Shown here in pieces: positions 14,797 through 61,727 of a DNA stretch of 64,000 bases. Under the pieces are notes generated by a model, which saw nothing but the letters and a program-made list of their open reading frames with translations, was not told where the DNA came from and made no database searches. Position 1 is the first letter of the stretch, and every line of letters begins with the position of its first letter. A program made the translations under genes and the position numbers. The stretch comes from Verrucomicrobiaceae bacterium (GTDB lineage Bacteria > Verrucomicrobiota > Verrucomicrobiia > Verrucomicrobiales > Akkermansiaceae). The stretch is from the NCBI GenBank assembly GCA_027486655.1, contig JAIXOR010000021.1:1-64000 (forward strand), given 5' to 3'.

Positions 14797-14798
14797 TC

Positions 14799-16208: not shown

Positions 16209-16211
16209 CAC

Positions 16212-17364: not shown

Positions 17365-17386
17365 CTCCGGACTTCACCTTCCGGAG
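17365..17386 (+). promoter_or_regulatory. Hairpin directly before the nucleoside-hydrolase-like gene
   Basis: CTCCGGA-N8-TCCGGAG forms a perfect 7-bp stem that ends one base before the ATG at 17388. It would sequester the initiation region of the mRNA, much like the hairpin at the start of the PEP-CTERM gene 1.2 kb away. Confidence 0.4.
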
Positions 17387-17387
17387 C

Positions 17388-18413
17388 ATGAGCGTGCATC
17401 CCATGGCAGCCGCAGCAGCGGCGATCGGTCTGACCTTCGCACCCGGCTTCGCCGCGGAGAAGGCGGAGGAAGCGGCACCGTTGATCCAGAAGAGGGTGCG
17501 GGTGATCATCGACAATGACTTCGGCGGCGATCCGGACGGCTTGTTCCAACTCGCGCATCACCTTCTTTCTCCATCGGTGGATGTCCGTGCGATCATCGGC
17601 TCGCACCATCATCCGGAAGGATTCTACGGCCACCCGGGCACGGCGGAACATGCGGTGGCGATGGCGGAGCAGCTTCTCGAGGTGATGAACCTGAAAGGCC
17701 GGATTCCGGTGATCCGCGGAGCTTCCGAACGCATGCCGGACACCGGTGCACCGGTGATGACGGAAGCGGTGAAGTTCATCGTCCGTGAAGCCATGCGCGA
17801 GGATGTGAAGAGCCCCTTGTATCTGGTTTGCGGGGCAGGCCTCACAGACGCCGCAGGGGCCTGGCTCCACGAGCCGCGGATTTCACGGAAGCTCAAACTC
17901 ATCTGGATCGGCGGACCCGAGTATCCGGGAACGCCCCCGCCTCCCGGCAAGCCGCGGATGGAGTACAACCTGAGCATCGACCTCAAGGCCGCGCAGGTCG
18001 TGTTCAACGATTCCGATCTCCCGCTTTGGCAGGTGCCCCGCGGAACCTATCGGCAGGCCCTGGTTTCCCATGCGGAGCTGAGGCGGCGGATGGCTCCGGA
18101 GCGCAGCCCCACCTCCAGGTATTTGTTAGAGCGGCTGGAGGACCTCATGAAACGCGCCCGAGGCTCGCTGGGAGAGACCTATGTGATGGGAGACAGCCCG
18201 CTGGTGCTGCTCACCGCGCTGCAATCCTCTTGGGAGCCCGACCCCTCATCGAGTCCGTATTTCGAAACCGCGGCACCCCGCATCGACGGGCAGGGATGCT
18301 ACGCCGGGCCAGCCGGAGCGAGGAAGATCCGGGTTTACACGGGGATCGACACCCGTTTGATGATCGAGGACTTTCATGCAAAGATCGCCGTGGATGCCCC
18401 AGCAGGCCCCTGA
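17388..18413 (+). CDS. Exported nucleoside-hydrolase-like protein
   Basis: A 341-residue protein with a short signal peptide (about 1-23, Ala-rich, cut near GFAA). The opening strand VIIDNDFGGDPDGLFQL (about 40-55) matches the Asp cluster that binds Ca2+ in inosine/uridine-preferring nucleoside hydrolases (usually DxDPGxDD). Later HHHPEGFYG and WIGGPEYPG fit the same fold. Because it is exported and the canonical motif is altered, it may act on nucleosides in the periplasm or on a different N- or O-glycoside. It is followed 70 bp later by purT, a purine gene, though shared transcription is only inferred. Confidence 0.78.
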   Translation: MSVHPMAAAAAAIGLTFAPGFAAEKAEEAAPLIQKRVRVIIDNDFGGDPDGLFQLAHHLLSPSVDVRAIIGSHHHPEGFYGHPGTAEHAVAMAEQLLEVMNLKGRIPVIRGASERMPDTGAPVMTEAVKFIVREAMREDVKSPLYLVCGAGLTDAAGAWLHEPRISRKLKLIWIGGPEYPGTPPPPGKPRMEYNLSIDLKAAQVVFNDSDLPLWQVPRGTYRQALVSHAELRRRMAPERSPTSRYLLERLEDLMKRARGSLGETYVMGDSPLVLLTALQSSWEPDPSSSPYFETAAPRIDGQGCYAGPAGARKIRVYTGIDTRLMIEDFHAKIAVDAPAGP

Positions 18414-40581: not shown

Positions 40582-40593
40582 AACCCACACGCC

Positions 40594-43970: not shown

Positions 43971-44735
43971 TTACTTTTTGTTCGCCTTGAGCGCTCCTTC
44001 CGTCTGGCCCTTGAACCAGGTATCATACTCCTCGGTGGCGACCACTTCCATGGATCCCACCATGTTGCCGTGACCTTCACCGCAGAGCTGGCCGCAGACC
44101 ACATAGGTTTCAAGCGCCTTGGTCGGCGTAAACCACATCGGGATCTCACGTCCGGGAATGGCATCCTGCTGGATGCGCATCGGAACGATGGAGTAGTTGT
44201 GAATCACGTCCTTGGTGCCGATGTTGAGAACGGCGGGACGCTGGACCGGCAGCTTCAGAATGGGGCTGGTGAAGTCGTCCAGGGCGTTCGGATCCTGATA
44301 GTCGATGCCGCAGTCGTTCGAGCCCGAGATCAGGGCGGCATCCACACGACCGAACTTGCCGTCCGCGCCGGGGTAATGATAGGTCCAGCCGAACTGCCAA
44401 CCGACGACGCGAACGCGCACCGGATCCAGCTTCTGGACTTCCTTCCAGCTGTCGACACGCTCGGCCCAAAGCGGGAAGGCGAATCCGAGCAGGAGCACCG
44501 CCTCGATGATGATGACTCCCACCTCGAGGTGGCTGGAGAGGTGGCTGCGCACACCCTCATAAGAAGCCTTCGGATTGTTGCGGTGCCAGAAACGGAAGAT
44601 GCAGTAGAAGAAAAACAACGTCCAGCCGATGAACAGCGCGAACATGAACCAGTGAACCACATCGATCATGTGGTCCACCTGGCTGCCGTGGGCGGAGAAG
44701 TTTTCCGGGATACCGAGGAACTTGGAAGGACTCAT
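43971..44735 (-). CDS. coxB: Cytochrome c oxidase subunit II
   Basis: A 254-residue membrane protein. Two N-terminal helices (about 27-48 and 70-90) precede a periplasmic cupredoxin domain. The CuA site is intact: H179 in KDVIHNYS, then C214, C218, H222 and M225 in CGQLCGEGHGNM, where the Gln replaces the common Glu of the loop. No lipobox is present and no heme c domain is fused, so electrons must come from a separate cytochrome c. The leader before the ATG is AT-rich (TTATTATTCCA) with no Shine-Dalgarno. It is the last gene of the respiratory cluster. Confidence 0.96.
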   Translation of the reverse strand: MSPSKFLGIPENFSAHGSQVDHMIDVVHWFMFALFIGWTLFFFYCIFRFWHRNNPKASYEGVRSHLSSHLEVGVIIIEAVLLLGFAFPLWAERVDSWKEVQKLDPVRVRVVGWQFGWTYHYPGADGKFGRVDAALISGSNDCGIDYQDPNALDDFTSPILKLPVQRPAVLNIGTKDVIHNYSIVPMRIQQDAIPGREIPMWFTPTKALETYVVCGQLCGEGHGNMVGSMEVVATEEYDTWFKGQTEGALKANKK

Positions 44736-45259: not shown

Positions 45260-45622
45260 CTATTTTTCCACCGCCGGAGCGGGCTTTCCGTCGTAGAAGA
45301 AATTGTCGTGAATGGGATCGTATTTCGCGAGTGCGGTCAGACCGAAGAGCGCAATGACGAAGATGAAACCCGAGCCGAAGATCCAGTAGATCGCCTTCTT
45401 CTCGTGATTGAGGTGCATGAAGATGGCGGCGACCAGAGAGGCCTTGGTGGCCGCGATGGCCAGACCGAGGATGGCGTCCATCACATCGAATCCATGGTGC
45501 CCCACATCGAGCCATGGCACGGAGGCCACCAGCACGGTGATGATGGTGCCAAGGAAGAGGACGCCACCGACGAACATGTAGGTGCGGATGGACTTCTGAA
45601 CGGCTTCTGGAGTGTCTGCCAT
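45260..45622 (-). CDS. Cytochrome c oxidase subunit IV family protein
   Basis: A 120-residue protein with three helices, the usual form of bacterial subunit IV (CtaF/CyoD-like). The second helix region has ATKASLVAAIFMHLNHEKK, typical of the family (K-x-x-L-V-x-x-x-F-M-H-L). It has no redox cofactor and stabilises the oxidase. Length is normal. Confidence 0.9.
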   Translation of the reverse strand: MADTPEAVQKSIRTYMFVGGVLFLGTIITVLVASVPWLDVGHHGFDVMDAILGLAIAATKASLVAAIFMHLNHEKKAIYWIFGSGFIFVIALFGLTALAKYDPIHDNFFYDGKPAPAVEK

Positions 45623-45670: not shown

Positions 45671-47296
45671 TTACATCAGATAGAAGATCGGGAAGACGAA
45701 GATCCAGACCAGGTCGACAAAGTGCCAGAAGAGACCGCCGACTTCGACCCGGTTGGCAAGCCACTCGGGATTGGTTTCATACATCTTGCGTCCGAACAGG
45801 AGGTAATAGGCGAGCACCAGAGCCCCACCGATCACGTGAAGACCGTGCAACCCGGTGATGGTGAAGTAGATGGCATAGTAGGTGTTCCAGGATGGCGTGA
45901 ACTTGGATGCGAAGCGGATTTCCTCGCGGGGAACCGAAAGCTCCGGGAATGTCTCCTTGCCACGAGCCTCGTAGTTGGGCCCCTTGAACTCCTCGGTGAT
46001 CCGCTCGACCGCGCCGAGCTTGCCATGGCCTTCCGACTCGGCCTTGCGGGCGAGGTCCTGCCAACCAAGACGGTAACGCTCCTTGGCGGTCGGTTCGCGC
46101 TTCGGCTTTCCGGTCTTCTCGTCGATGCCGTATTCGTCGATGAGTTTCTTCTCAAGTTTGGCCACTTCCTGTTTGTTCCACTCCCAGGCCTTGCGGGCGA
46201 ACTCGTCATTCTTGATCAACCAGGAGTTTTCAATGGCAACGATCGGATCCTGTCCCTTCTCAACCGCCTTCATCGCCAGGTGGCGGAAGTCGATGGCATC
46301 GACGTTGTGAAACACCATCGGGCTTGCAAGCATCTTGCCGTCGATGACCGTGTCATCGCGAAGGCGGGACTGGGTGGCCCCCTCCTTCACATCGCGGGGT
46401 TTGAAGTCCATGCGTGCGGCGGGCTCGACCTTGAATGAAGCCGTCGAGATCTCAGTAAGCATGCGCTTGGAGTCCTCCAAGGCCTTCACGTCGATGTTCA
46501 CGTTGGAAGCCAGCTGCCAGCCACGCTTGCCGGGGTTTGCGGCCTTTGCCTCAGCCCATTCCTGACGAAGGGCGGCGGTGCGCAGGGCGCCGTTGTGGGC
46601 ACGGGCCTTGAGGTGGGCATCCTGGACCCGCTTGAGAAGTTCGACCGAGAGCGGCTCACCGGCTTTCGCGATGGTAACCTCCTCGGAGGAACCCTCTTCC
46701 GTGCGGGCTTTGATGTCGGACGCCAGCGTGATCTTCGCCTTGCGATGCTCCGCCTGGGTGATCATTTCCTCCACCCAATCGGCATGGAAGCGGACGGTGC
46801 TGAAAGTGAGACCGGTTGCCTCGATGCGAATCTGGTTCTCCTCGATGTGGTGGCCGTGGTGATCGAGCACATGCTTGCCGTCCTCCATCTCGTATCCGAG
46901 GTGGCCCTCGACGACCGTGTAGTCATGGAGGCGCACCGCCTGGTGATGAAACTTGACGGAATACTCGATGCCCTTGAGCACCATGAACACTCCCGCGCAG
47001 ACCACTGTAATGGTCATGTGCATGCGGAACTTGTTCCACTGGCGCATTTTGAGAGCCGCCCAGGCGAAAACCACGGTCACCGAAGAACCGATGAGCACGA
47101 AGGTGTTGATGAGACCTGGAAGGACGGGAAGCGTGCGCTCCGGCCACGGATAGTCCGCACCCAGGCGGAGGAACACGTAGGCAGAGAAGAACCCGCCGAA
47201 CAGCATGACCTCGGAGGCGAGGAACAGCCAGATGGCGATCTTCGAATTGAAGAGTCCGGTGTCCTTGCGGGGAGTGACGACGTAGGGAATTTCCAT
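45671..47296 (-). CDS. coxC: Cytochrome c oxidase subunit III with large soluble insertion
   Basis: A 541-residue protein, far longer than the usual 190-290. Three helices at the start (about 20-45, 55-82, 90-112; SEVMLFGGFFSAYVFLR and KGIEYSVKF) and two at the end (about 452-480 and 510-535; TGLHGLHVIGG and WHFVDLVWIFVFPIFYL) form the normal five-helix subunit III. Between helices three and four lies about 330 residues of charged, mostly helical, soluble sequence (115-445), where relatives have a short loop. This loop should face the periplasm. The Lys/Glu/Ala-rich segment resembles no family recognised here. It is within one uninterrupted reading frame. Confidence 0.93.
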   Translation of the reverse strand: MEIPYVVTPRKDTGLFNSKIAIWLFLASEVMLFGGFFSAYVFLRLGADYPWPERTLPVLPGLINTFVLIGSSVTVVFAWAALKMRQWNKFRMHMTITVVCAGVFMVLKGIEYSVKFHHQAVRLHDYTVVEGHLGYEMEDGKHVLDHHGHHIEENQIRIEATGLTFSTVRFHADWVEEMITQAEHRKAKITLASDIKARTEEGSSEEVTIAKAGEPLSVELLKRVQDAHLKARAHNGALRTAALRQEWAEAKAANPGKRGWQLASNVNIDVKALEDSKRMLTEISTASFKVEPAARMDFKPRDVKEGATQSRLRDDTVIDGKMLASPMVFHNVDAIDFRHLAMKAVEKGQDPIVAIENSWLIKNDEFARKAWEWNKQEVAKLEKKLIDEYGIDEKTGKPKREPTAKERYRLGWQDLARKAESEGHGKLGAVERITEEFKGPNYEARGKETFPELSVPREEIRFASKFTPSWNTYYAIYFTITGLHGLHVIGGALVLAYYLLFGRKMYETNPEWLANRVEVGGLFWHFVDLVWIFVFPIFYLM

Positions 47297-47347: not shown

Positions 47348-49249
47348 TCAATGATGGGCCGCAGGGGTTTTCGCGGCATCCGCGGCATCCGCGGACTCCT
47401 CGCGCTTCGGCTCGATCCATTGCGGGAGGAAATCCTTGTCGCAATCGGGGCGGCTGTATTCATAGGGACCCCGATAAACCGCGGGATCGAAAGTGAAATT
47501 GCCATGACCCGGAGGCGTGGGAGTGGCCCATTCAAGCGTGGTGGCCTCCCAAGGATTGTCGCTCTCGACCTTGCGGCCGGTCTTCCAGGAAATGAATAGG
47601 TTGATGATGAAAGGAATCTGGGCAAGTGCCATGGTCCAGGCACCCATCGACATCAGGATGTTCATGTCGATGTGAGCAGCCACAGTTTTCCCGAACACGT
47701 TGGCGCTGTCCGCGGCCTTGGCGAGGTAGGCGTCGCCACCGTTGTACCAGCGGCGGTGGAAACCGGCCATGCCTTGCAAGAGCATCGGGAAGAAGATGAT
47801 GTTCATGCAAACCAGGCTGGGCCAGAAGTGGAGGTGGTTGAGCCACGAGCTCATGTAGCGGCCGGTGATTTTGGGATACCAGTGGACCACACCGGCGAAG
47901 AAACCGAAGAGGATGCCCGGAGCCACCACGTAGTGGAAGTGACCGATCACGTAGTAGGTGTCGTGCAAGTGGAGGTCGGCCAGGTTGAACGCGAGCGGCA
48001 GACCGGTGAGACCGCCGATTCCGAACATCGGAATGAACGCACAGGCCCAGAGCATGGGCGGGGTGAAGCGGATCGATCCGCCCCAGAGCGAGATGAGCAT
48101 GGAAGTGATGATCACCACCGAGGGCACCGAGATCAGAACCGTGGTCGTCTGGAAGAAGGTGGACACCGCAGCGCCCATGCCGGTCATGTACATGTGGTGG
48201 GCCCAGACGATGAAGGAGAGGAAACCGAGGACCAGGACGGAGTAGACCATCGACTTGTATCCCCACAATGGCTTGCGAGTGTTCGCGGGGATGATTTCCG
48301 AGACGCAGGCGAAGGCAGGGAGGAGGAGCACATACACCTCCGGGTGGCCGAGGAACCAGAACAAGTGTTGGAACAGAAGCGGCGATCCGCCGCCGGAGAG
48401 ATCGGCAAGGCCCTCGCTCTTGGTGAAGAGCCCGGAAGGCATGAAGAAGGAGGAATGGGCGACCCGGTCCATCAGCTGCATGATGCCGGCGGCTTCAAGC
48501 GGCGGGAAGGCAAGCAGAAGGAGGAATCCGGTGACGAGCATGGCCCACACGAAGAAGGGCATGCGCATCCAGGTCATGCCACGGGCACGCAGGTTGATGA
48601 TGGTGGTGATGAAGTTGACCGATCCCAGCAGCGATGAAGTGATCAGCAGGACGAGACCGAGCAGCCACTGTGTCTGGCCGGCGAGCCACTGATTGACGAT
48701 CTGCCCATCCGCGAAGCCGGCGAGCGGTGAGTAATTCGTCCAACCGGACTTGGCCGCACCGGACTCCATGAAGAACGAGGCGCACATGACCAGACCACCG
48801 GCGAGGTAGATCCAGTAGCTCATCATGTTGAGCCGCGGGAAGGCCATGTCCGGAGCTCCGATCTGGAGCGGAGTGACGTAGTTGCCGAAGGCACCGAAGC
48901 CGAGCGGCACGATACCAAGGAAGACCATGATGGTCCCGTGCATGGCACCGAACATGTTGTAGGTCTCACCGGTCACTTTGCCATCCTGAAGCCAGCGGGC
49001 CTTCCAGGAGTCTGTGAACACCCAGCTCATCCACTCGGGCAGCGGCTGGTGAGGAAAGGCGATGCTCCAGCGCATCACCATCATCAGATAGAAACCGAAG
49101 GCCAGGAAGAGCATCGCCGTGATTCCGTACTGGATGCCGATCATCTTGTGATCGGTGGAGAAAACGTATTTCCGGATGAATCCCGGATCGTGGTGATGGT
49201 CGTCGTGGTGGGCGTCGTGCCCGGAGTGCGTGGTGGCGTGAGAGCTCAT
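47348..49249 (-). CDS. ctaD: Cytochrome c oxidase subunit I (aa3-type)
   Basis: A 633-residue heme-copper oxidase core. All ligands are present: H104 (low-spin heme), H302 in GHPEVY with cross-linked Y306, H351/H352 (CuB), H437 (heme a3) and H439 (low-spin heme). E304 in the GHPEVY motif is the usual proton-gate position. The N-terminus is rich in His and Asp (about 4-20), an unusual metal-binding-like extension. The protein reduces oxygen to water and pumps protons. The ATG has no Shine-Dalgarno before it. Confidence 0.97.
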   Translation of the reverse strand: MSSHATTHSGHDAHHDDHHHDPGFIRKYVFSTDHKMIGIQYGITAMLFLAFGFYLMMVMRWSIAFPHQPLPEWMSWVFTDSWKARWLQDGKVTGETYNMFGAMHGTIMVFLGIVPLGFGAFGNYVTPLQIGAPDMAFPRLNMMSYWIYLAGGLVMCASFFMESGAAKSGWTNYSPLAGFADGQIVNQWLAGQTQWLLGLVLLITSSLLGSVNFITTIINLRARGMTWMRMPFFVWAMLVTGFLLLLAFPPLEAAGIMQLMDRVAHSSFFMPSGLFTKSEGLADLSGGGSPLLFQHLFWFLGHPEVYVLLLPAFACVSEIIPANTRKPLWGYKSMVYSVLVLGFLSFIVWAHHMYMTGMGAAVSTFFQTTTVLISVPSVVIITSMLISLWGGSIRFTPPMLWACAFIPMFGIGGLTGLPLAFNLADLHLHDTYYVIGHFHYVVAPGILFGFFAGVVHWYPKITGRYMSSWLNHLHFWPSLVCMNIIFFPMLLQGMAGFHRRWYNGGDAYLAKAADSANVFGKTVAAHIDMNILMSMGAWTMALAQIPFIINLFISWKTGRKVESDNPWEATTLEWATPTPPGHGNFTFDPAVYRGPYEYSRPDCDKDFLPQWIEPKREESADAADAAKTPAAHH

Positions 49250-49427: not shown

Positions 49428-50204
49428 TCAGGGCTTTGCAGCGGTCACCGGGGCGAGGGAGATGGGATCGACCAACTGCTTGGGATCGAGGGGTTCGCCG
49501 GGAAGGTTCTTGAGGTGGTCGGCATCGAGTTCGGTGCCGGTAACGGGTTGACCGGCCTTCGCGCGTTTATCGGATGCCTCCATCGCGGCCTTGGCCATTT
49601 CCGCGGTGATCACGTCGCCCTTGGCATTGCCGAAGTTGTTGCGCACGTAAGTCATGATGCCGGCAAGGTCCTCGGGGGTGAGGCCGGCACCTTGAGCAGG
49701 CATGACGCCGGCACCATAGGTTTTACCGGAGCTGGTAGGGCCTTGGAGACCATTGAGGATGACCATGGCGAAGCGTTCGGTTTCACCCAGGACCCACTTG
49801 GATCCGACAAGCGAAGGGAAGTTCGCTCCATCGCCCTTGGCATCGGATCCGTGACAACCGTTGCACTTGGCCGAGTAGATCTTTGCGCCCTTGGCGCTGT
49901 AGGCGGCAAGAGCCTCCTTCGGTTTCGGCCCTTCCTCTCCCCCACCCGGAGGAGGGGTGCGGACGTAGCCTTCGCGAAACATGGTTCCGTAGGAAAGGCC
50001 GCTGCCAACGCTGCCGAGCACACCGCCGGCAGTCGCGACGACCAGTCCGCAAGCGACGATGAGCCAAAGCGAAATCGGCTCGGAGCCGTTCTCGGCAATC
50101 CGTTTCTCACGGGCGCAGGCGGCGGCCTCGCGCACCACGCGTCCATGGGCCTCGGTCACGTTGATCGAGTCCTCGAGGTCAGGCTTCTGATTGGGCAGAG
50201 ACAT
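49428..50204 (-). CDS. Membrane-anchored monoheme cytochrome c
   Basis: A 258-residue protein. A cytoplasmic start of about 45 residues precedes one helix (about 46-68), then a periplasmic cytochrome c domain (about 105-200) with a single heme motif, KCNGCHG, and a likely Met ligand in GVMPAQG. The C-terminal region is Ala/Lys-rich. It lies between the CcoO-like gene and subunit I of the aa3 oxidase, so it may deliver electrons to CuA. Confidence 0.9.
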   Translation of the reverse strand: MSLPNQKPDLEDSINVTEAHGRVVREAAACAREKRIAENGSEPISLWLIVACGLVVATAGGVLGSVGSGLSYGTMFREGYVRTPPPGGGEEGPKPKEALAAYSAKGAKIYSAKCNGCHGSDAKGDGANFPSLVGSKWVLGETERFAMVILNGLQGPTSSGKTYGAGVMPAQGAGLTPEDLAGIMTYVRNNFGNAKGDVITAEMAKAAMEASDKRAKAGQPVTGTELDADHLKNLPGEPLDPKQLVDPISLAPVTAAKP

Positions 50205-50233: not shown

Positions 50234-50938
50234 TCAACTGTCTCCCGCTTTTTTCTTGGGAGCGAAATCAAGGGCGGCTGGAACCGGGTGATCCTTCTTG
50301 AGCGAGAGCAGGTAGGAAACCAGGGCGCGTGCGTCGGATCCCGGAACCACTTCGAATCCCGCACCCACATCCACCGGAAGAGCACTCTTCGAGGGGTTGC
50401 CTTTGACTTCGCGCTTCTCGAACAGGAAGGGATGCGGCGGGCATGTCGAATTCCAGAGCTTCGGGTTGGCGGTGGGGTTGTAGAGGCGGACGTATAGCCA
50501 GGCCGCGGGATCGCTGCCCACGGCGTATTCGGTCTCCACGCGACGGGCGAGGTTGGAAAGATCGGGGCCCATGCGGTTGGTGCCGATCTGGGCGAAATTT
50601 TCGCCGATGAAGTCAAAGGCGTTGGTCTCACGGCGGGTGTCGCCGCGGTCCGCGTCGTTCTTCAATCCACCCCAATCCGGGCGGTAGAGATCATTGCCGG
50701 CATAGGTGGGGCGGACGACCTGGGTGTGGCAGAGATAGCAGCCGTTCTCGGCATAGACCTTGGCTCCGTCGGCGACGCGGCCCGTGCGCTTCGGATAGAA
50801 GATGGGGGTCGCGCTCTTCGCGGCGGGATCCGCGATGGGGGCGAGGTCGCGCATTTTGAAATACGGGACCACGACCATCGCCAGCCAGGCGGCGCCGAAG
50901 CTGGCGGTGAGACCGAGAATGAAGGTGCGGAGGCTCAT
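50234..50938 (-). CDS. CcoO-like monoheme cytochrome c (cbb3 subunit II family)
   Basis: A 234-residue protein with one N-terminal helix and a heme c motif CYLCH (C67, C70, H71) followed by TQVVRP, the family signature. The rest, such as IGTNRMGPDLSNLARR, also fits CcoO. The usual Met heme ligand in S-x-M-P-x-x-P seems to be replaced, because the matching stretch reads NSTCPPHPFLF with C166 at that position. It is encoded directly after the CcoN-like gene. Normal CcoP is absent from the cluster. The leader (TTTCTCCA before the ATG) has no Shine-Dalgarno. Confidence 0.88.
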   Translation of the reverse strand: MSLRTFILGLTASFGAAWLAMVVVPYFKMRDLAPIADPAAKSATPIFYPKRTGRVADGAKVYAENGCYLCHTQVVRPTYAGNDLYRPDWGGLKNDADRGDTRRETNAFDFIGENFAQIGTNRMGPDLSNLARRVETEYAVGSDPAAWLYVRLYNPTANPKLWNSTCPPHPFLFEKREVKGNPSKSALPVDVGAGFEVVPGSDARALVSYLLSLKKDHPVPAALDFAPKKKAGDS

Positions 50939-50977: not shown

Positions 50978-52471
50978 TTAGTGCGCATGGGCATGGCCCG
51001 GGCCGGCGTTGTCGATGTCGCCTTCCTCGCCGTGCGGGCTGGACGTGTGATGCTGGGAGACCAGCAAGGTCGGGTGCGAACTGCGGCGGCCGAGGCGCAG
51101 CCACATGAGGGTGAGGTGGATGAAGAAGAACACGTTCGAAAAGAGGATGAGTCCCCAGGTGAGCGTGATGGTCACCGCGTAAGGGCGGGCGTAATTGGAC
51201 CACGCGTTCTGCCAGGTTTCCTGGCCGGCGCCCTGCAGCAGGCCGCCGAAGAGAGCCACGACCGCCACGAAGATCGTGCCGTAGACCGAGAAGAGGAAGT
51301 GCATCTTGATCAAGCGGCGGGACAGCCACTCGCGGCGCGTCACACGGGGCACGATGAAGTAGGTGGCACCGAACATGATCAGCGAGAACACACCGTAGAT
51401 GGCGAGGATATCAAAGCCATAGCCGGAAAGGGTGAATTGGGTCACCGGAAGGGTGGAACCCGGAAGGTTGAGCAGGACGGCACTGATCGCCAGAACGATG
51501 AGACCCACGAGACCCGCCGCGGTGAAGCGCAGGGAGGGGCTGGAGGCCAGCGTATCCGGACCCGCCATCATCGTGCGCAGGTTGTTGACGGCAGCCGAGC
51601 AGGTCGGGATGAACAACAGCGCGGTGGCTGCGGCACCCACGTAGGGAAGGAAGTAGGGCACGGGAGCACCGGCGAGCTTCTGCATGCCTGCCCAGGGGGC
51701 GATCACGGCGAGCGACCAGAAACCGAGCTTGGCCAGCGAGTAGCTGAAGACAGGGCGTCCGGTGACTTTCGGAGAGAGGTAATAGGCGGTGCCGATCGCG
51801 ACCGGGACAAAGAACAGGAAGAGGAGGGCGGAGCGGAACCAGGCGTTGATGCCGGCACCCATCACCGGATGGCCGGGAAGGCAGTGGAGCAGGGTGTTGG
51901 CGGTGATGAAGATCCAAGGGAACCAGATCATCGCGCCGAGAAGATACCACTGGGAAATGTAGACATGGCCCTCGGGACGCACGCGGAACTGGATGAAGGA
52001 CCAGATGAGAATGGCGAAGTAGCTGATCAACAGCACCGGCCAGGCGAAGGCCGGAAATTCCATCCAAGGCATGCCGGTTCCGTGACCTCCGAGGATCCCC
52101 ATCACACCCAAAGCCACGCCGAGATTCCAGACGTGTCCGGCGGCGAGGATGGTGCCCGGAGCGCTGCACTCCTTGCGGGAAAGGCGGGCCATCAACCAGA
52201 TGATCACCGCAAAGGCCGCCTGCATGCCCCAGCCATAGATCAGGGCGTTCATGTGGGCCGGAAACACCCGCCCGTAAGTGAACCACGCACACTCCGCAAG
52301 GAAGGAGGGATGGTGGGTCTTCGCGGAGGCGATCACGCCCAGCAGGATCGACACGGCGAGCCATGCGGCACCGCTGGTCAGGAAGAACATCACCGGGTGG
52401 CGCAACGAACGATCGATCCCCGCACGGAGTAGGGCGTCCTGATCGGTGGTGGTGGAAGTGACGGAAGACAT
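50978..52471 (-). CDS. CcoN-like protein lacking heme-copper ligands
   Basis: A 497-residue, about 12-helix protein clearly homologous to the cbb3 oxidase catalytic subunit: FPAHMNALIYG fits helix 2, YYLSPKVTGRPVFSYSL fits helix 6-7 and FGATYFIVPRV fits helix 10-11. Only H73 of helix 2, a low-spin heme ligand, is kept. The helix 6 CuB His is S214, the CuB His pair of helix 7 is Q264/K265, and the two helix 10 His of G-H-V-H are F353 and I355. It should not reduce oxygen as other CcoN proteins do. It is otherwise full length and well spaced in the cluster, so it is not a pseudogene by frame. The C-terminus is His-rich (HAHAH). Confidence 0.9.
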   Translation of the reverse strand: MSSVTSTTTDQDALLRAGIDRSLRHPVMFFLTSGAAWLAVSILLGVIASAKTHHPSFLAECAWFTYGRVFPAHMNALIYGWGMQAAFAVIIWLMARLSRKECSAPGTILAAGHVWNLGVALGVMGILGGHGTGMPWMEFPAFAWPVLLISYFAILIWSFIQFRVRPEGHVYISQWYLLGAMIWFPWIFITANTLLHCLPGHPVMGAGINAWFRSALLFLFFVPVAIGTAYYLSPKVTGRPVFSYSLAKLGFWSLAVIAPWAGMQKLAGAPVPYFLPYVGAAATALLFIPTCSAAVNNLRTMMAGPDTLASSPSLRFTAAGLVGLIVLAISAVLLNLPGSTLPVTQFTLSGYGFDILAIYGVFSLIMFGATYFIVPRVTRREWLSRRLIKMHFLFSVYGTIFVAVVALFGGLLQGAGQETWQNAWSNYARPYAVTITLTWGLILFSNVFFFIHLTLMWLRLGRRSSHPTLLVSQHHTSSPHGEEGDIDNAGPGHAHAH

Positions 52472-52501: not shown

Positions 52502-53257
52502 TCAGGGCTTGGCGAGGTCCTGCACGGTGAGCGGTGGCTTGCCCACCTCGCTGCGGAGGGCCTTCACCTGATCTGCGGTCACGGCCGAGGCCTTGTTGCC
52601 GAAGCTATTGCGGACGTAGGTGAGGACAGCGGCGATCTGCTCGTCGGTCTGATACGACAAGGCAGCCATGCCCGCGGGGAAATTGTATTCTTTTCCTGCA
52701 ACCGTGATGGGCCCCTGAAGACCACGCAACTGGATGCGGATCAGGTTGGAAATCGGGCCGGTGACCCACTCGGACTTGGCGAGCGGCGGAGCGATCGGGC
52801 CCCCCTCGCCATTCATGCCGTGGCAGGCTCCGCAGGTGACGAATTGGGTCTTGCCGAGTTCCATGACGGCGGGATCGATCGGACCATCGGCCGGAGCGGC
52901 TTTGTCGACGGCGGAGGTATCCACGGCCGGAGCGGCGGCGAGTTTCGCGGCGGTGGGGCTGCCGGCGACCACTTGGTCCGGTTTTTCGACGGCGGCGGGT
53001 TTCGACGAGGCAAGCTTCGCGGCGACGGCGGGGATGGCGGCATGGATCGCTTCCTTCGGAAGGCTCTCGGTCTGCGCCTTCTCCACCTTGGCCTTGGTTT
53101 CGTAGCGGGCCTTGGCGGCGACGTCCTCGAGGGTCTCGGGATCCTTGCGGTTGAAGAACCAGATCACGGCGAGGAGCAGCGCGAAGATCAGGAAGGTGCC
53201 GAGGCCCCACCAGAAGGCGCCGAAGCGGATGATCGGATTGTCACGGGTGTGGTCCAT
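52502..53257 (-). CDS. Membrane-anchored monoheme cytochrome c
   Basis: A 251-residue protein. A helix near the start (about 10-31, WWGLGTFLIFALLLAVIWFFN) is followed by an Ala/Lys-rich linker (35-130) and a C-terminal cytochrome c domain with CGACHGMNGEGG and a Met in FPAGMAAL. It has the N-terminal anchor typical of cytochromes that shuttle electrons between complex III and oxidases. It lies after actF and before the CcoN-like gene. Confidence 0.9.
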   Translation of the reverse strand: MDHTRDNPIIRFGAFWWGLGTFLIFALLLAVIWFFNRKDPETLEDVAAKARYETKAKVEKAQTESLPKEAIHAAIPAVAAKLASSKPAAVEKPDQVVAGSPTAAKLAAAPAVDTSAVDKAAPADGPIDPAVMELGKTQFVTCGACHGMNGEGGPIAPPLAKSEWVTGPISNLIRIQLRGLQGPITVAGKEYNFPAGMAALSYQTDEQIAAVLTYVRNSFGNKASAVTADQVKALRSEVGKPPLTVQDLAKP

Positions 53258-53275: not shown

Positions 53276-54586
53276 TCAGTTGGAAAGGTTGGCGGACTCG
53301 AGGATGCGCGGGTCGCGATTCGGATAGAGCGAGTGCTGGCCGATGGCACGGAGGAGGAAGAAGATGAAGGCGGAGCCGATGGTGACGAAGGCGAGGATGT
53401 CGCCCCAGAACGCGCCGGGAATGGCGGGCTGGATCTCACCGAAGACGCCGGGCTTGATGTTGCCGAGAGAGATGCCGCGCTCGGGGATGGAAATCAGGTA
53501 GTGGTCGAGCACGTGCATCACCAGGGTGTAGGCAGCCATGATCGAGAGTGCCTTCGGGTTCTTCTTGAGCCAAGCCTGGAGCAGGATGACAAAGGGGAAG
53601 ACGAAGTGGCCGAAGACGAGGAAAATCATCGCGGTGTTCCAGTTTCCGGTGTTGCGGATGAGGAAGTAGGAGGTCTCCTCGGTGATGCCCGCATACCAGA
53701 TCAGGAAGAACTGGGAGAACGAAATGTAGGCCCAGAAAACGGTGAAGGCGAAAAGCAGCTTGCCCATGATGTGGAAGTGCTCGCCGGTGGTGACGTGCTT
53801 GAGGTGGCCCTGGCTCTTCAACCAGGCGCAGACCAGGATGATCACGGCCATCGAGTTGAGTGCGGAGCCGGAGAACAGGTAAACCCCCCACATGGTGGAG
53901 AACCACTTGTAGTCCAGACCCATCATGAAGTCGAAGCCGGTGAAGGTGATCGTGAGGGCGAAGATGATCAGGGTGTAAGTCGAGTGGAAGCGGGCCTTGA
54001 AGAGGCGGGCCGTTCCGGGGTTCGGGTCCGTGTCCTGGGCGGTCGAGAGTTTTCTGAGACCAATGATCACGAGGCTGAGGCCGACGCCCCAGAAAATGAC
54101 CCGCGCATACCAGAACGGGAGATTCATGAACCAATACTTGTTGTAAAGCAGGTGGTCCGCGTGATGCAGGTGCTCCTTGACGCTGCCGTGAGCCTCGCGA
54201 TGGATGTTCATCCACTCGTAGAGATACTGCTGGACCTGCGGGAAGAGCAGAGGGATGCCGAAAAGGAACATCCAGGGGTAGGTGGAGCCGAGGTTTTCAA
54301 AGGTCCGGCGCACCGAGGTCCCCCACCCCGAGTTGGAGACGTTGTGGAGCAGGGTCCAGAAGCATCCGCCGATGGAGAGGGTGAGGAAGAAATAGAAGGC
54401 GAAAAGCCACGAATAGGCATAGGTGCCCCGGGTCTTCTCGGATCCGACGAAAAGCAGATAGATACTGACCAGCGTGCCGATGGCGGCGATGACCATGGCA
54501 GCGGTCTTCACCTTGGAAACCTTGGAAGGATCCAGGTGATCGCCATTGATGGCGATGTCTGCGGAAGTGACGTGATGGTGGCCCAT
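53276..54586 (-). CDS. actF: Alternative complex III subunit ActF
   Basis: A 436-residue integral membrane protein with about ten helices, of the ActC/ActF (NrfD-like) lineage; it is the second large membrane subunit of quinol:cytochrome c oxidoreductase. It has an N-terminal His/Asp-rich segment (MGHHHVTSADIAING). The internal part FSQFFLIWYAGITEETSYF is typical of ActF. It overlaps no gene and is 5 bp after actE in the direction of transcription. The AATAATTCCA leader before the ATG is AT-rich. Confidence 0.93.
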   Translation of the reverse strand: MGHHHVTSADIAINGDHLDPSKVSKVKTAAMVIAAIGTLVSIYLLFVGSEKTRGTYAYSWLFAFYFFLTLSIGGCFWTLLHNVSNSGWGTSVRRTFENLGSTYPWMFLFGIPLLFPQVQQYLYEWMNIHREAHGSVKEHLHHADHLLYNKYWFMNLPFWYARVIFWGVGLSLVIIGLRKLSTAQDTDPNPGTARLFKARFHSTYTLIIFALTITFTGFDFMMGLDYKWFSTMWGVYLFSGSALNSMAVIILVCAWLKSQGHLKHVTTGEHFHIMGKLLFAFTVFWAYISFSQFFLIWYAGITEETSYFLIRNTGNWNTAMIFLVFGHFVFPFVILLQAWLKKNPKALSIMAAYTLVMHVLDHYLISIPERGISLGNIKPGVFGEIQPAIPGAFWGDILAFVTIGSAFIFFLLRAIGQHSLYPNRDPRILESANLSN

Positions 54587-54591
54587 TGGAA

Positions 54592-55239
54592 TTATTTGGA
54601 AGAGGCTTTCGCGGCTTGAAGCGTGTGGATGTAGGCGATGATGGCCCAGCGGTCACGAACGGGGATGTTGTAACCGTAGCCGCTCATCTGGCCCTTGCCG
54701 GCGGTGATGACTTCGAACAGGCGGCCGTCCGGATAGGTTTCCGCGGAAATCGCGTTGAGTTTCGCGTTCGGGTTGCCTGCCACCGGCACGCCATACTGGG
54801 CGGTGATGCCATTGCCATCGCCGGATGCGCCGTGGCAGACCGCACAATAGATTCCGTAGCGCTCCTCGCCGCGGCGGATGAGCTCGGCGGCGCTTTCGTT
54901 GGTGAGCTTGAGCTCCTCCGGCATGCCGACGCCGTAATAGTCGCCGACGTGGCCGGTGTAGTAGTAGCCGGTTTGTCCGCCGAATTCATACTCGGGGATG
55001 CCGCCGATGGACTTCTCACCTTGCGGGTTGAAACCGCGGGGCTGCGTTTGGGCGACCGGAAGACGGCCGCCATGTCCGTCGGCGAAAAATGCATCCGGCT
55101 TCTGGGCCTTGAGTTTGTCCTGCTCGTCCATGTCCGGGAAGATGCGGACGGGAGGCTTGGAGAACTTCTGGCCGCGGACGCCGAAGATGCCGACGACGAT
55201 CAGGGCGATGAGCGCGTAGATGAGGAAAAAGTAGCGCAT
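54592..55239 (-). CDS. actE: Alternative complex III monoheme cytochrome c subunit ActE
   Basis: A 215-residue membrane-anchored cytochrome c. One helix near the start (about 2-21) precedes a periplasmic domain with a single heme motif CAVCH (YGIYCAVCHGASGDG) and a likely Met ligand in GQMSGYG. In Rhodothermus ActE is the monoheme subunit that takes electrons from ActA to a soluble acceptor. Position and size fit the family. Confidence 0.93.
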   Translation of the reverse strand: MRYFFLIYALIALIVVGIFGVRGQKFSKPPVRIFPDMDEQDKLKAQKPDAFFADGHGGRLPVAQTQPRGFNPQGEKSIGGIPEYEFGGQTGYYYTGHVGDYYGVGMPEELKLTNESAAELIRRGEERYGIYCAVCHGASGDGNGITAQYGVPVAGNPNAKLNAISAETYPDGRLFEVITAGKGQMSGYGYNIPVRDRWAIIAYIHTLQAAKASSK

Positions 55240-55280: not shown

Positions 55281-55835
55281 TCAGTCTTCTTCCTCGACGA
55301 GTTCGATGTTCTCGCCGCCGATGGAGGAGAGGAGTTCCTTGGTCTGATTGGGGCTGAACTTCGGATCGCGGGCCTCGATGGCGATGAAGAAGGCATCATC
55401 GGTGGCGCGGTGGAACTGCTTGCTGGCAAAAAGCGGATGATTGAGACGCGGCAGCTGGATCAAGCCGAGCAGACCGAAGAGCACCGTGAAACCGGAGAAC
55501 AGAATCGTGAGCTCGAACATCACCGGGAAAAAGGCCGGAACGCTGAAGATGTTGGCGGGCTTGGCCTGGACAACGGTGGGGTAGATCACCACCTGAGTGG
55601 TGTAGGCGAGGGTGAAGGCGGTCGCGGTGCCCGTGATGCCTCCGAAGAACACGAACCAGGGGAGGATCGAGCGCTTCATGCCCATCGCTCCATCCAATCC
55701 GTGGATCGGATAAGGGGAGTAGCAGTCCCATTTCCTGAAGCCGGCGTCGCGGACCTTCTCCGCTGCCTTGTAGAGGGCGGAGGCGCTCTTGAACTCGGCA
55801 AGGTAGCCGTAAACGCGTTTGCGGGTGGTGCTCAC
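55281..55835 (-). CDS. actD: Alternative complex III subunit ActD (DUF3341)
   Basis: A 184-residue membrane protein with two helices (about 57-80 and 103-125). The start GTG at 55833-55835 gives MSTTRKRVYGYLAEF. The cytoplasmic N-terminal part (VYGYLAEFKSASALYKAAEKVRDAGF) and CYSPYPIHGLD are the DUF3341 signature. It has no cofactor and likely has a structural role beside ActC. The acidic C-terminus ends ELVEEED. Confidence 0.93.
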   Translation of the reverse strand: MSTTRKRVYGYLAEFKSASALYKAAEKVRDAGFRKWDCYSPYPIHGLDGAMGMKRSILPWFVFFGGITGTATAFTLAYTTQVVIYPTVVQAKPANIFSVPAFFPVMFELTILFSGFTVLFGLLGLIQLPRLNHPLFASKQFHRATDDAFFIAIEARDPKFSPNQTKELLSSIGGENIELVEEED

Positions 55836-55878: not shown

Positions 55879-57345
<1,467 letters not shown>

Positions 57346-57387: not shown

Positions 57388-60300
57388 TCAGACCATGTGG
57401 ATGGTGGACTTGCCGATGAAGGGCGCGTCCGGCATGTGCTGGTTCGGATTCTTCACGCGGGCCAGATAGCTGGTGCGCGGGCGGGTGCCGATGTAGTTGA
57501 GCAGGTCGTAGTTGCGCTCGATGGACTTGGTGCGGCCGACGGCGGACTTCTCCTTGTCGAGGAGGTTGCCGAAGGTGATGGCATCGGCCGGGCAGGCCTC
57601 CTGGCAGGCGACCTTGATCGAGTCCACCGGCACGCGCAGGGTGCTGGTGGTGACTTCCATCTCGGTGGATGGCTTGCCGGCGACGAGGGCTTCCTGTTTC
57701 TGGCCGCGCTTCTGGCGGATGACGGCGTCCTTGAGGCGCTGGACGCAGTAGGTGCACTTCTCCATCACGCCGCGCATGCGGACGGTGACGTTGGGATTCT
57801 TCTGGAGGTGCTCCGCATCGCCCACAGCCTTGGTGCCGAAGGGGCCGTGGTAGAGGTTGTGTTTGATGAGCGGGTTGCGCTTGTTGTAGTCGAAGTAATT
57901 GAAGCGGCGGGCCTTGTAGGGGCAGTTGTTCGCGCAGTAGCGGGTGCCGATGCAGCGGTTGTAGGCCATCGCGTTGAGGCCGTCCTCGGTGTGGATCGTG
58001 GCATTGACCGGGCAAACCGTTTCGCAGGGAGCGGATTCGCACTGCACACAGGCGACCGGCTGGGGAACGAAAGCCGGGTTGTCCGCATCGAAGGTATTGT
58101 CCTTCTGGGTAGCGTAGTAGCGGTCCATGCGGATCCAGTGCATTTCGCGGCCGCGGGCCATCTGCTCCTTGCCGACGACCGGGATGTTGTTCTCCGCCTG
58201 ACAGGCGATCGAGCAAGCGGCGCAGCCCATGCACGAAGAGAGGTCGATCGACATGCCCCACTGGTGGAGCGGGTCGTTGATGAGCGGCTGGGCCTTGCCA
58301 TCCGGACCGGGGTGCCAGGTGCTGGAGGTTTCCGGCTTGTAGAGATAGACGTTGGGCGGAGCGTGGGAATCGTTGCCCTGCTTGCTGACGTTGGCGAGTT
58401 GTTGCTTGAAGGAGCCCTTGTGCTCGTCCTCCATGGTCGAGACCTCGCGGGCGAGGGCGCGGCCATACATCGAGCTGTGCTCCTGGGTCAGGGCCAGGCT
58501 GTAGGTCTTCCCTTCAAGGAATTTCACCTTGGCTCCGGTGGCGATGTAGGAAGTGGCCGACGTGCGCAGCGGGTAGGCATTGAAACCGCGGTTGACGCCA
58601 ACAAGGCCGACGTGGCCCTGTTGATCGGTCTTGCGGCCGAGTTCGTCATCCTTGTCGAACCCTTGGCCGTAGCCGAGCGGGATCACAATCGTGTTCTCCG
58701 CCTGTCCGAAGGAAATCAGCACGGGGAGCTCCAGGGATTTTCCGTTCACGGTCACCTCGATCATCCGCTGCTTGCGGTTTTCCCCTTCCCCATCGGGACC
58801 GACCTTGGCGAACTTGCCTTGGGCGGGGACCACGTAGGGCACGGCGTCGGAGTATTGCTCGACTTCGACGATCTGGTCGTAGATGCCGAGTTCCTTGGCG
58901 GTCTTGGGCGCGATCAGCGCGGCGTTGTCCCAAGTGAGTTTCGAGATCGGGTCGGGAATCTCCTGCAACCAGGCATTGTCGATCCAGCGGCCGTCGAAGA
59001 CCGAGGAATCCGCGGAGAAAACGACCTGGAGAGAGTCTTTGGAGGGTTCACCGGCCTTTCCGGCCTCGATGTTGGCGGCGGCGATGTCCGCTTCCGCAGT
59101 CGGAGCCTGGCTGGCCGCGGCGAGAGAGTAACTGGATCCTGCGAGGAAGCCATCGCGAAGCAGGGTCTTCCAAGCGGCCTCCCCTCCCCCGCCGAGGCTG
59201 GCGAAGGTTTTGCGAACGGCATCGTAGGCGGGAGAAGGTGCGCCCTTTTCGCCCTCACCGTTGATCAGCTTGCCGCTATCGGAAAGCAGGGCGAGCAGCA
59301 GTTCGATCTCGGAAACGCAATCCTGATAGAGCGGCAGGATCATCGGTTGGACGATCGTGTAGGCACCGCGGGCTCCGCGGGTGTCGGACCAGGCCTCAAG
59401 GTAGTGGGCGGCGGGCACGTGCCAGGTGGCGGCATGGGCGGTGGCGTCGGTCCGTTCGCCAAGGTGGATGCTCGTCTTGAGCTTGGCCAGCGAGGCCTCG
59501 AAACCGAGGTCTGCGGGGGCATCGTAGACGGGGTTTGCCGGTGTGAGCATGACCAGGGTGTCGATCGCTCCCCCGTCGAGATCCGCTTTGAGGTCCGCGA
59601 GCGAACCGAGGCCCTTGGCGTCGGTCTGCACGACCGCGAGCGGCTTGCCTTCGCCGATGGCTCCAAGCGCGGTGTTGATGGCCAGGGCGAGGTGGTGCAC
59701 GGCTGCAGGAAGACGGGAACCTGCAAGAACGACGGCCTTGCCCCCGGCTGCCTTGAGATCGGCAACCATCGGCTTGATCCAGGAAAGGGTCTTGGCGTCC
59801 TTGATTTCATTGACGCCCTTGGCGATCGGAAGGCCGAGTTCGCGGGCGATCTGGCCGGCGACCTTGAGCACCTCGGTGGGAGCCACGCGCAGACGGTGAT
59901 CGGCCATGCCCCCGGTGAGGGAGTAGGCGGACTCGACCACATAAAGGCGGTTCATTTTGGACTCGTCCGGCGTTTGCTCGTAGGTTTTGCCCTCGGGCTT
60001 CCGGCGGTCGAAGAACGGAGTGACGGCTCCTTGCGGATCGACGCCCGCGAAGTCGCAATCGAGCGAGAGGATGCGGTCCGCCTTGGAGAAATCCGCCACG
60101 GGCTTCGCGCCATCGCCATAGGCTTTGGACGCCTCCCCGGCGAGAGCCTCATACTGGTAAAACTTCGCAGCCGTGAATTTGGCAGCCAGCTCCTTCGTCA
60201 GGCGGGCACGGGTCGGGCTGTCGTCCGCACCGAAAAGAAATCCGATCTTCGCTGCCTTGTTGGCGGCGAGTCCGGCCAGAACCGCTTCGAAATCGGCACG

Positions 60301-60804
60301 CTTCGCGGGTTTTCCGGAGCTGAGGAAACGGCGCGAACGATTCGGCGCATACAGGTCGAGCACCGAAGCCTGGGCGAAGGCATCCGTGCCGCAAACGTCG
60401 GGGTGAAGCGAGTTCGGACCCAGCTTGGTGGGGCGGCCTTCGAAGGTGGTCACCACGAGCGGGGTGGCACCGCAGGCGCGGGGCATGGCAGAGGCGTAGT
60501 AGGTGGCCTTGCCGGGAATGACCCACTCGGGAGCCTTGGTGTAAGGCACGATGTAGGTCTCCGGGCGGCGGCAGGCGGCCATGCCGAATCCTGCAAGTGC
60601 GGTGGAGGCCCCCATGAGCTTGAGGAACGAGCGGCGCGACGTTTCCGCCTCGGACTCATCCGCCATTTCGGCGGCGCCTTGCGGGAACTCGCGGTCCAGC
60701 CACTCGCGGAAGGCGGGAGTATCCTCAAGCTGGCCCACGCTGCGCCATGAAACCGTGGTTTCGCCAGCGGGGACTTCGGGATGTTGCCAGATGCGCTTGC
60801 TCAT
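57388..60804 (-). CDS. actB: Alternative complex III iron-sulfur subunit ActB (molybdopterin-oxidoreductase-like)
   Basis: A 1138-residue fusion of a molybdopterin-oxidoreductase-like part (about 60-800, lacking the cofactor in characterised ACIII) and a ferredoxin-like part (about 830-1100). A twin-arginine-like motif (R57-R58, SRRSFLKLMG) guides export. The second part has four cysteine clusters: CMGCAACSIAC, CVQCESAPCETVC, CIGTRYCANNC with NCPYKAR, and CTYCVQRL together with ACQEAC; in ACIII these hold three [4Fe-4S] and one [3Fe-4S]. It carries electrons from ActC toward ActA. The N-terminal segment before the Tat motif (about 55 residues) is normal in ActB proteins. Confidence 0.95.
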   Translation of the reverse strand: MSKRIWQHPEVPAGETTVSWRSVGQLEDTPAFREWLDREFPQGAAEMADESEAETSRRSFLKLMGASTALAGFGMAACRRPETYIVPYTKAPEWVIPGKATYYASAMPRACGATPLVVTTFEGRPTKLGPNSLHPDVCGTDAFAQASVLDLYAPNRSRRFLSSGKPAKRADFEAVLAGLAANKAAKIGFLFGADDSPTRARLTKELAAKFTAAKFYQYEALAGEASKAYGDGAKPVADFSKADRILSLDCDFAGVDPQGAVTPFFDRRKPEGKTYEQTPDESKMNRLYVVESAYSLTGGMADHRLRVAPTEVLKVAGQIARELGLPIAKGVNEIKDAKTLSWIKPMVADLKAAGGKAVVLAGSRLPAAVHHLALAINTALGAIGEGKPLAVVQTDAKGLGSLADLKADLDGGAIDTLVMLTPANPVYDAPADLGFEASLAKLKTSIHLGERTDATAHAATWHVPAAHYLEAWSDTRGARGAYTIVQPMILPLYQDCVSEIELLLALLSDSGKLINGEGEKGAPSPAYDAVRKTFASLGGGGEAAWKTLLRDGFLAGSSYSLAAASQAPTAEADIAAANIEAGKAGEPSKDSLQVVFSADSSVFDGRWIDNAWLQEIPDPISKLTWDNAALIAPKTAKELGIYDQIVEVEQYSDAVPYVVPAQGKFAKVGPDGEGENRKQRMIEVTVNGKSLELPVLISFGQAENTIVIPLGYGQGFDKDDELGRKTDQQGHVGLVGVNRGFNAYPLRTSATSYIATGAKVKFLEGKTYSLALTQEHSSMYGRALAREVSTMEDEHKGSFKQQLANVSKQGNDSHAPPNVYLYKPETSSTWHPGPDGKAQPLINDPLHQWGMSIDLSSCMGCAACSIACQAENNIPVVGKEQMARGREMHWIRMDRYYATQKDNTFDADNPAFVPQPVACVQCESAPCETVCPVNATIHTEDGLNAMAYNRCIGTRYCANNCPYKARRFNYFDYNKRNPLIKHNLYHGPFGTKAVGDAEHLQKNPNVTVRMRGVMEKCTYCVQRLKDAVIRQKRGQKQEALVAGKPSTEMEVTTSTLRVPVDSIKVACQEACPADAITFGNLLDKEKSAVGRTKSIERNYDLLNYIGTRPRTSYLARVKNPNQHMPDAPFIGKSTIHMV

Positions 60805-60849: not shown

Positions 60850-61551
60850 TCAATGGTGGCAGGTGGCGCAGCTTTCCTTGGGCTTCACCTTGAACTGCTC
60901 CTTGAGCTTGAGACCGAGCTCCTCGGTGGTCTTCACGCCGAGGGCGGCTCCGTGCTTGGAAACGTAGTCCTCCGCGTTGTAGTTGAAATTGTAGACTTCC
61001 TCGAGCGGACGCAGGTTCTTCTCCGGCGCGCGGTGGCAGTCAAGGCACCACGACATCGAGTGCGGCTGGGCCTGGTAGACCACTTCCATCTTGTTCACAT
61101 CGCCGTGGCAGGTCTGGCAGGAAATCCCGCGATTCACGTGCGCGGAGTGGTTGAAATACACGTAATCGGGCGATTTGTGAATCTTCACCCACTCGATCGG
61201 CTTGCCGTCGTATCCCGGGTGGGTCGGGTTCATGGACTTGTGAAGCGGTGCCAGCTTCGGGCTTTCCCGCTGGACGTGCTGGTGGCAGTTCCAACAGGTG
61301 CTGCCGGTCGGCACGTTCGAGTGCCCGGAAACATCCACAAAAGAGTGGCAATAGCGGCAGTCCAGCCCCAGTTGGTCCACGTGGATCTTGTGGGAGAACG
61401 GAATCGGCTGGGACGGCTGGTAGCCGACGTTCAATGCCTTGGGCGTGGCATAGTAGCTGAATGCGAGGGCGACTCCTGCTGCTGCGGACCCGGCGCAGAC
61501 GGCGATTTTCAGTGGCAGCAGATTGGACCAGCGGGGAAAAATGTTTGCCAT
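60850..61551 (-). CDS. actA: Alternative complex III pentaheme cytochrome c subunit ActA
   Basis: A 233-residue protein with one N-terminal helix (about 10-32) and five CXXCH motifs: CRYCH, CWNCH, CQTCH, CLDCH and CATCH. The pentaheme pattern is that of ActA. The ATG at 61549-61551 gives MANIFPRWSNLLP, the expected start; open sequence further upstream adds 21 residues unlike the family. It is the first gene of the cluster, so the promoter lies in 61552-61727. Confidence 0.95.
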   Translation of the reverse strand: MANIFPRWSNLLPLKIAVCAGSAAAGVALAFSYYATPKALNVGYQPSQPIPFSHKIHVDQLGLDCRYCHSFVDVSGHSNVPTGSTCWNCHQHVQRESPKLAPLHKSMNPTHPGYDGKPIEWVKIHKSPDYVYFNHSAHVNRGISCQTCHGDVNKMEVVYQAQPHSMSWCLDCHRAPEKNLRPLEEVYNFNYNAEDYVSKHGAALGVKTTEELGLKLKEQFKVKPKESCATCHH

Positions 61552-61727
61552 GGCGAGGGCGATACAGTGCGGAGGAGGCGTCGTTTGGAGGTTTGGGACC
61601 CCTGATTGCACCAAGAAACGGAGGCCGTCTGGGTGCGCGGGGAGGATGCAAACGACAGCAGGCCTTGCAACGGAAAAAAGAAAATCTGCGGGAATTTGTA
61701 AGACCTATCCAAGTCTGTCCGCCGCTT
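61552..61727 (-). other. Intergenic region upstream of the respiratory cluster
   Basis: This 176-bp gap must contain the promoter of the 18-kb respiratory cluster on the minus strand. It includes an A-rich run (GGAAAAAAGAAAATCTG, 61670-61686) and a TTGGAT-like box, but no pair with good -10 spacing was found. No RNA element was recognised. Confidence 0.3.

Follow-up and report, generated by a model that had tools for sequence, protein, structure and literature searches.

A CcoN-like protein without haem-copper ligands encoded beside alternative complex III in Verrucomicrobiota: a putative scaffold subunit

Many Verrucomicrobiota encode, behind alternative complex III (ACIII), a CcoN-like protein that keeps the fold of the C-type (cbb3) oxidase subunit I and lacks most of the residues that bind its haems and copper. 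We consider it reasonably probable that this protein is a pseudo-oxidase, that is, a subunit I unable to hold haem b3, CuB, or a bis-His haem b that persists as a membrane scaffold subunit of an enlarged ACIII. As a rule, heme-copper oxidase subunit I and its haem-copper centre are regarded as indivisible. The gene under study lies in a stretch of 64,000 nucleotides of a Verrucomicrobiaceae bacterium (contig JAIXOR010000021.1, positions 1 to 64,000; hereafter the window), in which ActA–ActF occur in order (ActF by position), followed on the same strand by a mono-haem cytochrome, the CcoN-like gene, CcoO- and CcoP-like genes, and CtaD, CtaE, CtaF, and CtaC:

60850..61614, minus strand: ActA, multi-haem cytochrome c
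57388..60804, minus strand: ActB, with 4Fe-4S domains
55879..57345, minus strand: ActC (NrfD family)
55281..55835, minus strand: ActD (PF11821 ActD, E 1.1e-61)
54592..55239, minus strand: ActE, cytochrome c
53276..54586, minus strand: ActF, assigned by position, no Pfam match
52502..53257, minus strand: another mono-haem cytochrome c, with a CGACH motif, encoded between ActF and the CcoN-like protein (profile matches)
50978..52471, minus strand: ligandless CcoN-like protein of the COX1 fold, 497 aa, 12 TM helices (COX1 Pfam, solved-chain search, AlphaFold2 model, structure comparison)
52253..52255, minus strand: codon of H73, equivalent of the low-spin haem ligand H60 and the sole ligand kept (alignment to 3MK7)
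51830..51832, minus strand: codon of S214, at CuB ligand position H207 (alignment to 3MK7)
51698..51700, minus strand: codon of A258, at the position of Y251, the helix-7 Tyr of C-type enzymes (alignment to 3MK7)
51677..51682, minus strand: codons of Q264 and K265, which stand in place of the CuB ligands H257 and H258 (alignment to 3MK7)
51407..51415, minus strand: codons of F353, in place of the haem b3 ligand H345, and I355, in place of H347, the second ligand of the low-spin haem (alignment to 3MK7)
50234..50938, minus strand: mono-haem cytochrome c of CcoO-like type, with a CYLCH motif (reaches the cut-off of Pfam FixO and falls short of those of the CcoO-type NCBIfam models)
49428..50204, minus strand: CcoP-like mono-haem cytochrome c, CNGCH motif (profile matches)
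47348..49249, minus strand: CtaD, aa3 subunit I, HCO ligand motifs intact as read by eye
45671..47296, minus strand: CtaE, subunit III of aa3, containing a long insertion
45260..45622, minus strand: CtaF, aa3 subunit IV
43971..44735, minus strand: CtaC, aa3 subunit II

The first-pass annotation had placed the gene between ACIII and aa3, and ActA–F and CtaD/E/F/C indeed flank it in the window. A plus-strand frame over 50978–52471 is a spurious antisense ORF; the true gene is on the minus strand. Two further observations concern the surroundings: CtaE (541 aa) carries an insertion of ~350 residues between its COX3 parts, its frames mostly measuring 430–695 aa in close relatives as compared to 270–295 aa in five loci of pMMO-bearing genomes (in Flavobacterium johnsoniae, ACIII is contacted by subunit III; PMC8361435), and a VIT/VWA protein whose tail looks PEP-CTERM-like by eye (38572–41967, plus strand) adjoins an exosortase gene.

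The fold is that of a C-type subunit I with 12 TM helices. The 497-aa protein matches the COX1 Pfam family PF00115 (E 3.2e-40), and its five matches among solved chains at E <= 0.01 are all cbb3 subunit sequences (best 9g6b, E 6e-23; 3mk7, E 2.8e-22). An AlphaFold2 model computed from 50 sequences (pLDDT 84.5, pTM 0.88) comprises 12 long helices and finds its best structural match in 3mk7_D (VIA-align; Z 46.1, 2.3 Å over 444 residues, 21% identity); cbb3 subunits are also the best Foldseek matches (3mk7_A, E 3.0e-19). With the NCBIfam model TIGR00780 (ccoN) the protein reaches 99 bits, below the curated cut-off of 583 bits, which also excludes the ligand-bearing relative L078 (224.5 bits).

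Seven canonical residues, numbered after Pseudomonas stutzeri CcoN (3MK7), were followed, namely the six His ligands of the low-spin haem, haem b3, and CuB, and Y251. Of the six His ligands a single one is kept (H60, here H73), and six of the seven residues are replaced by S, A, Q, K, F, and I. The alignment with P. stutzeri CcoN hence bears out what had first been read from the sequence, that is, a CcoN homologue stripped of its ligands (S214, Q264, K265, F353, I355) with H73 alone left, and adds the replacement of Y251 by A258, which was absent from that annotation. In the window protein, the eight residues to either side of positions 214, 258, 264, 265, 353, and 355 contain no His, so that realignment cannot bring the ligands back and misalignment is ruled out as the cause of the apparent loss. 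A nitric oxide reductase was likewise rejected: NorB shares the superfamily fold (Z 41.5 of the window model to 4xyd), but the NOR motifs H-X-Arom-X-E and HH-X-Arom-Arom (as given in an excerpt of PMC3084760) are absent from the window protein, which reads WFRSALLF around S214 and WAGMQKL around Q264–K265.

The loss is shared by close relatives. Matches to the protein were obtained in 38 of 39 relatives, although G020 and G028 matched through an ordinary cbb3-type gene only, and a named scan covering the best 80 of 519 related loci returned Verrucomicrobiota titles throughout, among them Luteolibacter pohnpeiensis, L. marinus, and Brevifollis gellanilyticus; these loci are assigned to the window's own order from their titles and sequence identity. 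In the alignment of 79 full-length rows (78 loci from these best 80 of 519, plus the window), Y251, H345, and H347 each occur in 0/79 rows, which rules out a single-strain loss. The CxxCH motif is present in 78/78 CcoO-like proteins of this set and in 77/78 of the next cytochromes.

Across the phylum, 90 of 288 sampled genomes were matched, some through ordinary cbb3-type genes only, and no CcoN-like match was found in the 20 listed genomes of genus g13, which is probably Akkermansia. From 103 aligned CcoN-like proteins, seven rows outside the ACIII-linked family were dropped (L002, L054, L055, L056, L069, L084, L085); four of these (L054, L055, L056, L084) form a separate ligand-bearing group of ~460 aa from other Verrucomicrobiota families, with no ACIII genes found nearby. 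Among the remaining 96 ACIII-linked proteins, many of them closely related to that of the window, the ligand pattern is all-or-none: 21 keep all seven residues, 75 keep zero to three, and none keeps four to six. The survey of verrucomicrobial ACIII clusters proposed in the first-pass annotation therefore has a divided outcome, since the loss is common to 75/96 relatives and 21/96, from other families, retain every ligand; of the two findings that it had named as speaking against its reading, relatives with intact ligands do exist, and confinement of the loss to one strain does not hold.

Ligandless ACIII-linked CcoN is also present in 5/5 pMMO-bearing genomes; they make up family f8, which we take to be Methylacidiphilaceae from its pMMO/AMO-family genes (5/5 genomes). 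The neighbourhood recurs across loci, with ActA–F upstream of the ccoN-like gene and, where enough sequence is present, CcoO-like and further mono-haem cytochrome genes downstream (labels are best phmmer matches to the window proteins, by which the cytochromes cytX and cytP are not reliably separable). An exception is L053 from a pMMO-bearing genome, where NosZ and NosD genes stand upstream of the ligandless ccoN (13847–18087), resembling the arrangement published for Methylacidiphilum caldifontis IT6 (PMC11102522, in excerpt). CcoO-like proteins have CxxCH in 75/75 ligandless and 21/21 ligand-bearing loci, and the next cytochrome has it in 75/75 ligandless and 19/21 ligand-bearing loci, the latter being all in which such a cytochrome was recognised. 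The cytochromes of the ligandless loci thus stay haem-binding while CcoN does not.

The ligands were apparently lost more than once, as judged from gene trees. A quick CcoN tree (86 rows plus 3mk7; 17 near-duplicate loci left out) requires two ligand-state changes, and a careful tree of 54 of these rows, without outgroups and pMMO-bearing rows, requires three, two of them forced by starred branches; the corresponding numbers are eight (six forced) for ActB+ActC (66 rows; 22 names without ActB or ActC left out), eight for ActF, and four for CcoO. If regain is disallowed, ten losses result for ActB+ActC (midpoint root) and six for CcoN, or more safely five, as the rooting splits the window's own order. 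The AU test rejects trees in which all ligandless rows are constrained to one group (p-AU 0.0109 for CcoN and 3.8e-80 for ActB+ActC), and with them one single loss for all of these rows. What appears to be the clearest in-place loss is that of ligandless L067 (family f7), which is found among ligand-bearing rows on the CcoN tree (96/94, six-row group), the ActB+ActC tree (100), and the ActF tree (96); on the CcoO tree, family f7 was not recovered and the nesting of L067 was not seen. Ligandless rows of family f9, seemingly Opitutaceae-like, group together on the CcoN tree but not on the ActB+ActC tree, so that gene transfer or long-branch attraction may account for some of the changes. Because the trees are discordant there, we speak of several losses and give no number.

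All ligandless genomes that were searched have a second oxidase subunit I. A PF00115 search of 55 genomes, of which 34 are ligandless and 21 ligand-bearing, gave at least two COX1 matches in 34/34 of the ligandless ones, and 31/34, the window's own included, have CtaD. The other three (G006, G018, G019) contain another strong COX1 match of a separate, fused-cbb3 kind (879–903 aa frame) that resembles L002, a second CcoN-like gene of the window genome (contig C27, 907-aa frame). L002 has all seven residues, which gives the window strain a canonical-looking cbb3 subunit elsewhere; the ligands of other oxidases were read for two proteins, L002 and the window's CtaD (by eye). A further COX1 match is also present in 19/21 ligand-bearing genomes, so that the loss is not accounted for by a second oxidase alone, which is a condition rather than a cause. 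In the remaining small ligand-bearing genomes G183 and G039 (98 and 99% complete), the ACIII-linked CcoN is the only COX1-family match and no cytochrome bd was matched (COX1 and bd types searched), which makes the ligand-bearing form probably a true oxidase.

The distribution of CtaD also bears on the proposal, made in the first-pass annotation, that the protein serves as a bridge or assembly partner linking ACIII to aa3, the oxidase encoded directly downstream. CtaD follows the gene in 70/80 close-relative loci (best 80 of 519) and in the five pMMO-bearing loci, and among loci of at least 14 kb it is found within the stretch in 23/50 ligandless as compared to 1/21 ligand-bearing cases. However, it is missing from the stretch in 27/50 ligandless long loci (including L110, which ends ~1.3 kb after the gene and is uninformative), and although 24 of these 27 genomes encode CtaD elsewhere, G006, G018, and G019 have no CtaD match at E 1e-15 and yet keep the ligandless gene. 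A partner specific to aa3 is therefore hard to sustain, and we regard this role as unlikely.

For the lineage of the window, it is conceivable, with a distinctly small chance, that one low-spin haem b is still bound by H73 together with a new ligand, such as H452 of the last helix, and serves as an electron relay. His occupies position 73 in 76/79 close-relative rows, position 391 in 79/79, and position 452 (51116–51118, minus strand) in 75/79, the last being a new conserved His that occurs in 0/21 ligand-bearing relatives. Against such a haem stand the Phe at position 73 in the other three rows and the Ala, Ser, Gln, Phe, Leu, or Arg that occupies the H60 position in many other ligandless rows; H391, moreover, is conserved in ligand-bearing rows too.

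A slowly decaying, functionless relic might be suspected from the long branches of several ligandless rows in the CcoN trees and from the wide variation of the residues at the lost sites among lineages, but is very improbable. The CcoN-like gene is under purifying selection, with a median pairwise dN/dS of 0.145 (81 pairs) that is similar to those of ActB (0.138) and ActF (0.136); ActC (0.088) and CtaD (0.081) are lower, ccoO (0.210) and cytP (0.199) higher (17 loci, simple Nei–Gojobori, pairs with pS under 0.70). At 72 positions of its protein, conservation among the 79 close-relative rows reaches 97% or more, the gene persists across an order and several families, and its length is unchanged (median open frame 507 aa in ligandless and 504 aa in ligand-bearing members). 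The earlier statement that an intact, long gene conserved in position does not reflect simple decay is thereby upheld. That the retained fold houses an active reductase with non-His ligands has next to no likelihood, as no substitute residue is common to all ligandless lineages at any lost position and the window protein has no NOR-type Glu signature.

The scaffold reading would account for these patterns as follows. Ancestrally, ACIII and a C-type oxidase with CcoN-, CcoO-, and CcoP-like subunits would have been encoded by one operon as a single quinol:O2 module. In lineages with a further terminal oxidase able to reduce O2, either aa3 or a separate cbb3, the active site of CcoN could have been lost, and this several times, the CcoO/CcoP-like cytochromes becoming the exit of the ACIII haem wire and CcoN being retained as the anchor that orients these cytochromes c in the membrane. 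Electrons would then pass from the ActA/ActE haem wire through the CcoO-/CcoP-like cytochromes to a terminal oxidase, be it aa3 (at CuA) or a different one. In Rhodothermus marinus, the haems of ActA and ActE form such a wire and ActE is the direct donor to the caa3 oxidase (PMC5928083, in excerpt). Gene order and distribution suggest that the CcoN-like protein is physically part of ACIII; its scaffold role and the direction of electron flow are, we infer, as outlined.

Fold and operon are already known, and the ligandless form beside ACIII appears to be new. With P. stutzeri cbb3 CcoN (3MK7) the window protein shares the 12-TM fold and the adjacent CcoO-like and CcoP-like cytochromes (both mono-haem in the window), but it lacks six of the seven haem/CuB/Tyr residues and is encoded behind ACIII. 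The C-type oxidase linked to ACIII in Opitutaceae and in verrucomicrobial methanotrophs has the same neighbourhood and very probably belongs to the same family (Refojo et al. 2010, as cited in PMC8498564); it was published as an oxidase, whereas ligandless members are found here in all five pMMO-bearing and many f9 genomes. The ACIII–aa3 and ACIII–caa3 systems of F. johnsoniae and R. marinus likewise couple ACIII to an oxidase, with electrons transferred via tethered cytochromes c, but the excerpts of PMC5928083 and PMC8361435 mention no CcoN-like subunit. Verrucomicrobial ACIII genes followed by caa3 genes have been described as well, with no CcoN named there (PMC13274419). A description of CcoN ligand loss was not found in a search of the open-access literature, in line with the earlier impression that such a subunit had not been described. 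Sequences without the six His were discarded by the classifier that Sousa et al. published in 2011 (PMC3084760, in excerpt), a filter that would hide this ligandless CcoN family.

The finding touches on published work on verrucomicrobial methanotrophs. According to excerpts of PMC8498564, isolated strains have, with one exception, cbb3, aa3, and ba3 oxidases, the cbb3 genes adjoining ACIII, and ACIII and a C-type enzyme are combined only in these methanotrophs and Opitutaceae. In the five pMMO-bearing loci, the seven positions read ADAAHQT (L051) or SESSHFV (L052, L053, L070, L126), with which CcoN cannot hold a cbb3 centre. A search of these genomes with the window protein for another cbb3 gave one match each at E 1e-10, the ligandless one. 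Four other COX1 proteins of these genomes were scanned: L211, L213, and L214 have 465–470 aa, L212 is nearest to CtaD/SoxB models, NCBIfam assigns no family to L211 and L213 and a weak partial ccoN match (37.7 bits) to L214, and L211 and L214 show NOR-type motifs by eye. Judging by position, the ligandless genes are likely those that the papers call cbb3 oxidase, which suggests that the name 'cbb3 oxidase' has in some publications been given to proteins that are not oxidases.

The chances are about even, in our estimate, that the wider picture holds, namely that a cofactor-free subunit I has become an obligate quinol dehydrogenase subunit in much of the class, its centre lost in place several times, that ACIII–CcoNOP in which CcoN carries out no chemistry represents a new type of respiratory complex, and that the ACIII-linked 'cbb3' credited with high O2 affinity in a verrucomicrobial methanotroph is not an oxidase. 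Respiratory models of Methylacidiphilum-type methanotrophs would be affected, as the cbb3 next to ACIII has been related there to high O2 affinity (PMC6688271, in excerpt). More generally, the occurrence of forms with and without ligands at one and the same place of the operon provides a natural series for studying non-catalytic roles of subunit I, which also makes the wiring between ACIII and oxidases testable.
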